From Guyparkeria halophila (GTDB lineage: Bacteria; Pseudomonadota; Gammaproteobacteria; Halothiobacillales; Halothiobacillaceae): a DNA stretch of 64,000 nucleotides. This document shows positions 10,219 through 48,310 of the stretch, in pieces; the stretch's first letter is position 1, and the number at the start of each line of letters is the position of its first letter. Below the pieces are notes generated by a model. The model was not told the origin of the DNA. It saw only the letters and a list, made by a program, of their open reading frames with translations, and made no database searches. The stretch covers positions 255,501 to 319,500 of the forward strand of contig NZ_CP140153.1 in NCBI RefSeq assembly GCF_034479635.1. Reading direction: 5' to 3'. The translations under genes and the position numbers were made by a program.

Positions 10219-10232
10219 GGTATTTCCTCCTG

Positions 10233-10499
10233 GGACTCTCTGCTTGAGATCTGATCCCGCTCTGCGCGCCTGGAGTCGGGCAGATGCAAGGCGTCCGTCC
10301 GACGTGGAAGGAGCTTACCTTTCCGAGGACGGCAACGCAGCAGGTGTCCGGCTCCAGGCGCGCCCTTCGGGGCCTTGCGGGTCGCCCGTGCTGGGCGTTG
10401 CGATGTCTTGACGTGGCCGCCGGCACGCTGGCGGCCACGCGCCTTCATCACGAACGACTCGCAAGGCCAGAGCGGCATCAGATCTCAAGTAGAGAGTCC
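10233..10499. repeat. Palindromic element copy 1 (267 bp) between gor and metR
   Basis: The outer arms are inverted repeats of about 32 nt with two mismatches (left arm GGACTCTCTGCTTGAGATCT). Inside are the motif CAGATGCAAGGCG (10281-10293, offset 48) and further paired arms: GCGCGCCTGGAGTCGG with CCGGCTCCAGGCGCGC, GCAACGC with GCGTTGC, and a GTGGCCGCC/GGCGGCCAC hairpin. Two other copies at 16.1 and 27.3 kb keep the same architecture and motif offset but use different stem sequences. It abuts the metR ribosome site, so part of it may be transcribed as the metR leader. Family unknown. Confidence 0.85.
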
Positions 10500-16140: not shown

Positions 16141-16407
16141 AGGAAGGTCTGCATGAATCCGATACCGCTCTGCGAGCCTTGAGTCGGGCAGATGCAAGGC
16201 GATCGTCCGCTGTGTAAGAGTTGTTCTCTTTCCAAGGGCGACAACGCAGCAGGTGCTCGACTCAAGGCTCGCCCTGCGGGGCTCGGCGAGTCGCCCGTGC
16301 TCGTCGTTGTGTCGTCTTGGCGTGGCCAACGCACGCCGGCGCCGACGCGCCTTGATCACGAATGACTCGCCGGGCCAGAGTGGCATCGGATTCATGCAGA
16401 CCTTCCT
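16141..16407. repeat. Palindromic element copy 2 (267 bp) between rsmB and the hydrolase gene
   Basis: Outer arms: AGGAAGGTCTGCATGAATCC, continuing through CGAT, are repeated inverted at the right end, ending at 16407. The CAGATGCAAGGCG motif is at 16189-16201 (offset 48, as in copy 1). Inner arms GAGCCTTGAGTCG and CGACTCAAGGCTC are perfectly complementary and differ from those of copies 1 and 3. ACAACG pairs with CGTTGT where copy 1 has GCAACGC/GCGTTGC. The flanking dinucleotide CA occurs on both sides, a possible 2-bp target duplication. The hydrolase ATG follows 22 nt after the right end. Confidence 0.87.
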
Positions 16408-16428
16408 CAACAGAGACATGTCATTTCA

Positions 16429-27293: not shown

Positions 27294-27558
27294 GGAACCT
27301 CTGCACGAATAGCCAACGCCTCTGCGGGTCGCCAGGTACCCAGATGCAAGGCGTAGCGCGCCGCCCAATGGCCGGAGTCATTGGCAAGCGCTGCAACACC
27401 GCAGATGGGTGCCTGGCGGCCCGCCCTCCGGGGCTTGCCGGCTTGCCCGCCCTCGGTGTTGCCGATTCTCGGCGGGCAACGAGCCCGACTTCGAATCGAC
27501 GCCTTGATGGCGAACAAGCCGGTAAGCCAGAGGCATTGGCTATTCGTGCAGAGGTTCC
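27294..27558. repeat. Palindromic element copy 3 (265 bp) between iscR and ndk
   Basis: Outer arms: GGAACCTCTGCACGAATAGC at the left end are repeated inverted at the right end, through CCAA with one mismatch. CAGATGCAAGGCG is at 27341-27353 (offset 47). Inner arms GGTCGCCAGGTACCCA and TGGGTGCCTGGCGGCC pair, AACACCG pairs with CGGTGTT, and a perfect hairpin AGCGC...CCAATG/CATTGG...GCGCT lies between. The stem sequences differ from copies 1 and 2 but the plan is the same. The element lies exactly where relatives carry iscSUA-hscBA-fdx. Confidence 0.87.
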
Positions 27559-46604: not shown

Positions 46605-47750
46605 TTGGATATCCGAGTGGTGACGGAAACCTTCCCGCCCGATATCAACGGGGTGGCGACCACGCTGGGTTGTCTGGTCGCGGGGCTACGTGACCGTGGC
46701 CACCGGGTGGTGGTCACCTGTCCGGCGGCCGGGGCTCCCCGCGATCTGGGTGAGGGCGACGAGGTGCGCGGGCTGGCGCTGCCGTTCTACCGTGAGGTCC
46801 GTTTCGGCCTGCCGCGGCGGCGCGCGTTTCTCGCCGAGTGGCGCGAAGACCCGCCGGATGTGGTGCACATTGCCACCGAGGGGCCGCTGGGTGCCTCGGC
46901 GCTCGCCGCCGCCCGCACGCTCGATCTGCCGGTCACCACCTCGCTACACACCAACTTTCATGCCTATGCGCGTGCCTATCGGCTGGGCTGGTTGGCCACC
47001 CCGGTGGTGCGATACCTGCGCCGGTTTCACAACCGCTCGGCGAATACCTTCATCCCCACGGCAAAGCAGGCCGCCGAGCTTGAGGCCTGCGGCTTCGAGC
47101 GGTTGATGGTGCTGGGGCGGGGTGTCGATACCGAGCGGTTCACCCCGGATCGACGTGACCCGGAACTACGTGCCTCCTGGGGGGCGGACGACCGTACGCC
47201 CGTGCTACTGCATGTCGGCCGGTTGGCCGCCGAGAAGAATCTCGGCCTCCTGGCGCAGAGCTGGGCGCGGGCCCAGGAGATCAACTCGGGCACACGGCTG
47301 GTGATCGTCGGCGACGGGCCCGAGCGGGGACGGCTCGAGCGGCAGCTGCCGGGTGCGATCTTCGCCGGGGCGCTGCGCGGTGAGGCGCTGGCCCGTTATT
47401 ACGCCTCGGCCGACGCCTTCCTGTTCCCCAGCCTGACCGAGACCTTCGGCATCGTCGTGCTCGAGGCCATGGCCAGCGGTCTGGATTGCCTGGCCTTCGA
47501 TTACGCCGCCGGCCGCCAGCTGATCGAGCCGGGCGTGAACGGCCTGTTGGCTCCATTCGGCGACTCGGTGGCCTTTCTCGACCGGGTTCCGGATCTCCTG
47601 ACGTCCGCATCGGGTCGGCGCCGTGAACGAGCCGTCGAAACCGGTCGACAGCACAGCTGGGAGGCCATTGTCGACGGCTTCGAGCAGAACCTGCTCGAGG
47701 TCGCCGAACGTTCGATGCCGCAAGTGTCGTCCCGGGAGGGCTTGGCGTGA
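46605..47750 (+). CDS. GT4-family glycosyltransferase (SQDG/GDP-mannose-type acceptor glycosyltransferase)
   Basis: This 381-residue retaining GT-B enzyme starts at TTG 46605, preceded by GAGGTG. It shows RVVTETFPPDINGVATTLG (acceptor-side glycine loop), TSLHTNFHAYARAYRLGW, VGRGV-like LGRGVDTERFTPD, LLHVGRLAAEKNLGLLAQSW, VIVGDGPERGRLE and FPSLTETFGIVVLEAMASG with the donor-binding E(x7)E motif. The FHxxY context resembles glycosyltransferases that glycosylate diacylglycerol, such as SqdX-like or DgcA-like enzymes, but the donor and acceptor are uncertain. The start of the PAP2 gene overlaps its stop by 4 nt, suggesting a joint glycolipid function. Confidence 0.85.
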   Translation: MDIRVVTETFPPDINGVATTLGCLVAGLRDRGHRVVVTCPAAGAPRDLGEGDEVRGLALPFYREVRFGLPRRRAFLAEWREDPPDVVHIATEGPLGASALAAARTLDLPVTTSLHTNFHAYARAYRLGWLATPVVRYLRRFHNRSANTFIPTAKQAAELEACGFERLMVLGRGVDTERFTPDRRDPELRASWGADDRTPVLLHVGRLAAEKNLGLLAQSWARAQEINSGTRLVIVGDGPERGRLERQLPGAIFAGALRGEALARYYASADAFLFPSLTETFGIVVLEAMASGLDCLAFDYAAGRQLIEPGVNGLLAPFGDSVAFLDRVPDLLTSASGRRRERAVETGRQHSWEAIVDGFEQNLLEVAERSMPQVSSREGLA

Positions 47751-48310
47751 TCCCGTTGCGTGCCGGCTCGCCCGCGGCCGAGCGATGCGCACGCGTCCTC
47801 CAGGCCTATCTGGGGTGGGAGGCGCTGGTGACCGAGCGCTGCAACCGCGCGCATCGGTTGCGTGTATTGCGCGCGCTGTTCGCGACCGCCTCGCGGCTGG
47901 GCGACGGGATTGGCTGGTACGTGCTCGCGCTGCTGATGCTCGTGCTGCACGGGGCGTCGGCGGTGGTGCCGATGGCGCTGATGATCGCCTCGGGTGGGGT
48001 GGGCGTGCTGATCTACCTGACGATCAAGCGTCGCACCGCCCGCCTGCGTCCACTCAATCGCAACCAGCGGTTGGAAATCAGTGTCGCGCCGCTTGACCAG
48101 TACAGCTTCCCATCCGGCCACACCTTGCATGCGGTCAACTTCGGCATTCAGTTGGTGGCCTTCCAGCCCGCGCTGTTTTGGCTCGTCCTGCCGTTCGCCC
48201 TGTTGGTGGCCAGTTCGCGCATGGTGCTTGGGCTGCACTATCTCTCCGATGTGCTCGTGGGTGCGGCGATCGGCTTGCTGCTGGCCAGCCTCACTCTGTC
48301 ATTGCTCTGA
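47747..48310 (+). CDS. PAP2-family membrane phosphatase
   Basis: PAP2 enzymes dephosphorylate phosphatidic acid, undecaprenyl diphosphate or related lipids. The 187-residue protein has the three motifs KRRTARLRP, PSGHTLHA and SRMVLGLHYLSDVLVG with the catalytic His residues, and four to five membrane segments. It starts at GTG 47747 in a 4-nt overlap with the glycosyltransferase, so the two are translationally coupled. If the glycosyltransferase uses diacylglycerol, this phosphatase could supply it; that is inference. Undecaprenyl-diphosphate phosphatase activity is equally possible. Confidence 0.85.
   Translation: MIPLRAGSPAAERCARVLQAYLGWEALVTERCNRAHRLRVLRALFATASRLGDGIGWYVLALLMLVLHGASAVVPMALMIASGGVGVLIYLTIKRRTARLRPLNRNQRLEISVAPLDQYSFPSGHTLHAVNFGIQLVAFQPALFWLVLPFALLVASSRMVLGLHYLSDVLVGAAIGLLLASLTLSLL

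Follow-up and report, generated by a model that had tools for sequence, protein, structure and literature searches.

Mini-transposons with IS5-like ends in Guyparkeria halophila carry a hairpin core that recurs across bacterial genomes

The window analyzed here, a stretch of 64,000 nucleotides of the Guyparkeria halophila genome (contig NZ_CP140153.1, positions 255,501 to 319,500), contains three copies of a non-coding palindromic element of 265-267 bp, which possesses long terminal inverted repeats (TIRs), GGAANNTCTGCACGAAT, at both ends. The positions proposed for the three copies in the first-pass annotation were right, and the exact transposon ends are listed in Table 1. Copy 1 is separated from the start codon of the LysR-type regulator gene by the 14-bp gap 10219-10232, and copy 2 from that of the alpha/beta hydrolase gene by a 22-bp gap (16407-16428); being close to start codons, these two copies possibly lie within 5' leader or promoter regions. 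Each window copy is predicted to fold into a Y, with an outer stem of about 30 bp formed by the terminal inverted repeats and two side arms, and folded singly the copies surpassed their dinucleotide shuffles (z = -11.8, -12.3, and -14.7; 0 of 200 shuffles as good). The stems differ among the three copies yet still pair, as had been claimed and as comparison of the copies confirmed. Between the TIRs, the two hairpin arms are arranged in opposite orientation, and each is built on one core, which consists of CAGATGCAAGGCG, about 40 nt, and CAACGCNGCAGATG, in which G.A mismatches and loops are conserved. Each copy contains CAGATGCAAGGCG once, and the window has no further occurrence of it; the motif common to the sequences between the ends reads CAGATGCAAGGC...CAACGCNGCAGATG. 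Both arms of all three copies were detected, on opposite strands, by a covariance model of the core (model R1).

Table 1. Copies of the element in the window and their core hairpins
Feature	Position	Strand	Remarks
Element copy 1, two-arm form	10233..10499	+	14 bp upstream of LysR-type gene (10218-9292, -)
Copy 1 arm 1, conserved core hairpin	10267..10360	+	model R1, 59.3 bits
Copy 1 arm 2, second diverged core, opposite strand	10374..10465	-	model R1, 35.4 bits
Element copy 2	16142..16406	+	between divergent RsmB/F-type methyltransferase and alpha/beta hydrolase genes
Copy 2 arm 1, core hairpin	16175..16269	+	model R1, 65.2 bits
Copy 2 arm 2, core hairpin	16282..16374	-	model R1, 29.5 bits
Element copy 3	27294..27558	+	between Rrf2-type regulator gene and ndk
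Copy 3 arm 1, core hairpin	27327..27421	+	model R1, 67.9 bits
Copy 3 arm 2, core hairpin	27437..27523	-	model R1, 37.8 bits

The description of the repeat as a three-copy element holds for the window but underestimates the complete genome (2.45 Mb), in which about 39 elements were counted from the list of 66 matches to model R1; other Guyparkeria species have comparable numbers. BLAST returned 26 matches of the element in this genome, up to 31 in Guyparkeria congeners, and few or none in sister genera. The TIR motif GGAANNTCTGCACGA occurs 108 times in the genome versus twice for a reversed-pattern control; its pairs are mainly 265 bp apart, and shorter forms (55-198 bp) as well as one of 332 bp are also present. 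The elements are often flanked by 4-bp repeats, such as CTTG, CAAG, TTAT, CTAG, and TTAA, and the flanks of copy 2 (CCAA/TCAA) are a decayed 4-bp duplication. Empty sites were found in relatives, where the element is absent and exactly one 4-bp repeat is left; the gap of -4 was seen at three sites, two of them clear. The empty sites and the 4-bp target duplication together identify the elements as mini-transposons (MITEs), and the three repeats are copies of a non-autonomous MITE with IS5-like ends.

The target duplications of IS5-family subgroups are of the types TA, TNA, and YTAR. In its ends and its YTAR-like target, the element is similar to the IS5 subgroup of this family. A 3-nt target site has been described for the IS1031 group (PMC2516522). 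The duplications of core-bearing MITEs belong to the three IS5-family types. The present element, however, encodes no DDE transposase; it has only IS5-like ends and is too short for a transposase, and is therefore not an IS.

Several variants of the element were identified. The 332-bp copy (L120 300-632) has additional palindromic sequence between its two arms, and G. hydrothermalis R3 (L185) has the corresponding empty site, of the clean 4-bp type. Two 92-bp derivatives without core (L117 300-392, L122 300-392) are located at different sites and share an apparently identical internal deletion; the existence of such core-less derivatives at two sites suggests that the core is possibly dispensable and not strictly needed for movement. 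In addition, the region around 47744-47856 of the window is a possible empty site for an element of a Halothiobacillus-labelled bin (L233), with flanks only about 75% identical.

The core is distributed far beyond Guyparkeria. In a scan of genome contigs, the core pattern was met in at least 120 stretches, distributed over about ten phyla; the sources are partly metagenome bins, in which contamination is possible. The groups include Acidobacteria, Deltaproteobacteria, Streptomyces, Faecalibacterium, Planctomycetes, Bacteroidota, Omnitrophota, Elusimicrobia, Verrucomicrobia, and Proteobacteria, and Streptomyces, Faecalibacterium An121, Microbulbifer, Thioalkalivibrio, and Halopseudomonas are represented by isolates. 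Model R1, which was built on alignment A2 and applied with a cut-off of E <= 0.001, matched 106 of 299 sampled Pseudomonadota genomes, versus 0 of 299 for a control model written backwards; pairs of cores on opposite strands, about 105 bp apart, were detected in many other genomes as well. The distance from the left end to the start of the core is 48-52 nt in most TIR families, and the elements measure about 265-279 bp (two arms) or about 160-167 bp (one arm); deviant sizes are about 220 bp in Desulfobacterota and about 105 bp in Kuenenia and Omnitrophota bins. Exact repeats in the flanks indicate a target duplication of 2 bp (TA) in Streptomyces (23/25), in Faecalibacterium (4/5), and in genomes of the same phylum and another class, for which "alphaproteobacteria" is a guessed label (6/8); 3 bp in Acidobacteria (5/5, TNA) and Comamonas-type genomes (4/6); and 4 bp (YTAR) in Guyparkeria elements. 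One core is found, then, in MITEs with different TIRs and 2-, 3-, or 4-bp duplications. That an ancient, phylum-spanning structured cassette, selected as folded RNA or single-stranded DNA (ssDNA), may have been passed between the TIR types of different IS5-family transposases is a proposal on which our judgement is evenly balanced. About 50 near-identical one-arm copies with TA duplication, 165 bp long and in a few cases 192 bp, are possessed by Streptomyces sp. NBRC 110028 (L326-L355), which looks like a recent burst.

A transposase with matching ends was found for the Comamonas-type TIR but not in Guyparkeria, where the search covered DDE_Tnp_1, a single family: no transposase of this family is present in this genome, and none of the DDE_Tnp_1 loci of relatives bears the TIRs of the element. 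The Comamonas-type TIR forms the ends of 851-878 bp ISs, annotated as "IS5 family transposase", in Xanthomonas and Moraxella plasmids. The core is absent from these ISs, indicating that it is not derived from IS ends, and it probably sits in MITEs served by different IS5-family enzymes. A plasmid BLAST with copy 2 gave no match, the TIR of the presumed alphaproteobacteria was not found in plasmids, and no TIR pair of IS length occurred among the matches listed for the Streptomyces genome with about 50 copies.

The stem covariation noted in the first-pass annotation is real, with a score of 0.654 over 36 diverse cores versus 0.178 +- 0.014 after shuffling and at most 0.17 for slid structures, bearing in mind that any set of unrelated palindromes would show outer-stem covariation. 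Its conserved inner motifs were likewise recovered, the fixed motif columns of the core alignment stemming from the search pattern. Fixed mismatches persist in the otherwise palindromic arms, namely tandem G.A, AAG opposite one base, and CAA. Mismatches in the TIR stem (GT 43, AC 62, GA 27, TC 21) have no wobble bias; in this respect, the TIRs act like transposase sites in double-stranded DNA. Read in the forward direction of the core, the mismatches of the arms are GT 62/AC 31 in the outer stem, and GT 145/AC 27 and GA 86/TC 1 in the inner stem; across phyla (thinned to 43 cores), they are GT 65/AC 34 and GA 28/TC 8 in the outer stem, and GT 18/AC 3 and GA 39/TC 1 in the inner stem. For the outer arm, the G.T bias amounts to no more than about 2:1 and loses significance when the Guyparkeria copies are thinned (28/17, p = 0.14). 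In arm 2, the bias falls on the other strand, where it is inflated because arm 2 was located by a score accepting G.T. Since the kinds of mismatch depend on the strand, selection seems to act on the arms as a single strand in folded form, either RNA or ssDNA. The earlier proposal of selection or copying for structure is thus supported for the inner arms, but not for the perfect outer arms, which are transposon ends and bear no sign of single-strand selection.

In orthologous copies from related species, 15 of 16 double changes keep a Watson-Crick pair, and changes occur at 99 of 769 unpaired sites versus about 5% of paired sites; single changes are not strongly filtered. Some of the double changes are transversions, such as AT to TA, indicating that template switching between arms may contribute, and double changes also occur in the TIR. 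Together with TIRs that are perfect despite their changing sequence, these changes would fit an ordinary MITE under no selection, the arms of which are kept alike through template switching (quasipalindrome correction), and the pairing of the outer arms may in part result from one arm being copied from the other. However, template switching would remove the G.A mismatches and bulges that the core has retained across phyla, and would not yield an excess of G.T over A.C and of G.A over T.C in the arms only; this disfavoured explanation is therefore regarded as improbable. The whole interior of the element was also found inverted between Guyparkeria species at one clear site of about ten (L097/L112 versus L300 and L318; 0.91-0.94 identity only when flipped), and a second case (L075 versus L373) is less clear.

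The preserved pairing, the greater divergence of orthologous copies at unpaired sites, and the strand bias of mismatches would also be expected if the cassette were an RNA element serving the host (terminator, stabiliser, or small RNA), with the transposon only as its vehicle. We consider this unlikely, because insertion sites differ between species, size and arms vary among copies, and the genes neighbouring the three window copies have no kind in common. Somewhat better placed, but still tentative, is the suggestion that the cassette is an ssDNA signal for transposition or replication, e.g. in the form of a hairpin that is recognized by a transposase, a primase, or a repair factor: the cassette occurs in transposons and in none of 2.9 million viral contigs, two-arm elements have one oriented cassette per strand, and DNA, too, can form sheared G.A and G.T, whereas IS5-type ISs with the same TIR lack the cassette and core-less derivatives exist. 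The present data fit the RNA and ssDNA forms of the cassette alike.

As a whole, the explanation that we consider probable is a MITE with IS5-type ends that is moved in trans and carries an ancient hairpin cassette selected as a folded strand. An IS5-family transposase supplied in trans, of which no DDE_Tnp_1 member was found in this genome, would move the element through its TIRs; each of the three copies carries a cassette of about 93 nt, presumably of ancient origin, twice and in opposite arms, so that either strand has one in the proper orientation. Selection would favour the folded cassette, in the form of RNA or ssDNA, for binding a putative, widely conserved partner, and cassette-bearing elements might thereby spread or persist better. 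The usual view of MITEs is that of transposon remnants lacking any content of their own; that a hairpin core has been retained in about ten phyla, with different ends around it, suggests that MITEs carry a working part. Present in about a third of the sampled Pseudomonadota genomes, the core is common in bacteria and has as yet no name; its putative partner, once found, would explain this feature and make MITE persistence testable. If the evenly balanced proposal of a cassette passed between TIR types is true, the cassette would represent a transposon-borne functional motif of undescribed kind, with a putative near-universal bacterial partner.

In agreement with the first reading, which could name no matching element, no Rfam family scored above its gathering threshold in the window, and none over the elements in 13 loci. 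A match to mir-532 at 16164-16280, obtained with lax thresholds, is far below the cut-off and was dismissed as a hairpin artefact. No literature on the core or the element was found, the core strings bringing up only unrelated papers. The core was thus matched to no named family in Rfam or the literature, and ISfinder or MITE databases may hold a named relative.

ERIC, YPAL, and Correia are palindromic intergenic MITE-like repeats with a conserved fold, which are confined to few genera; going by their general description, their sizes and motifs differ from those of the present element. Integron attC sites are folded hairpins with conserved boxes, unpaired bases, and a variable stem, whereas here whole elements transpose with target duplication. 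REP/BIME elements are short palindromes with a tag, which a RAYT transposase moves without duplicating the target; the 4-bp duplication of the present element does not fit this type. To our knowledge, no core is common to the present element and Coxiella QMITE1/QMITE2. The latter are likewise palindromic MITEs, with strong palindromic folds and some of them transcribed as small RNAs, and for QMITE1, orthologues in other genomes are reportedly lacking (PMC5896051); they are set apart from the present element by description. Finally, IS5-family MITEs, like the elements described here, are short and non-coding, have TIRs and a 2-4 bp duplication at TA/TNA/YTAR, and occur in many copies; unlike them, the present elements possess a conserved structured internal cassette, which is common to unrelated TIRs and different duplication lengths.
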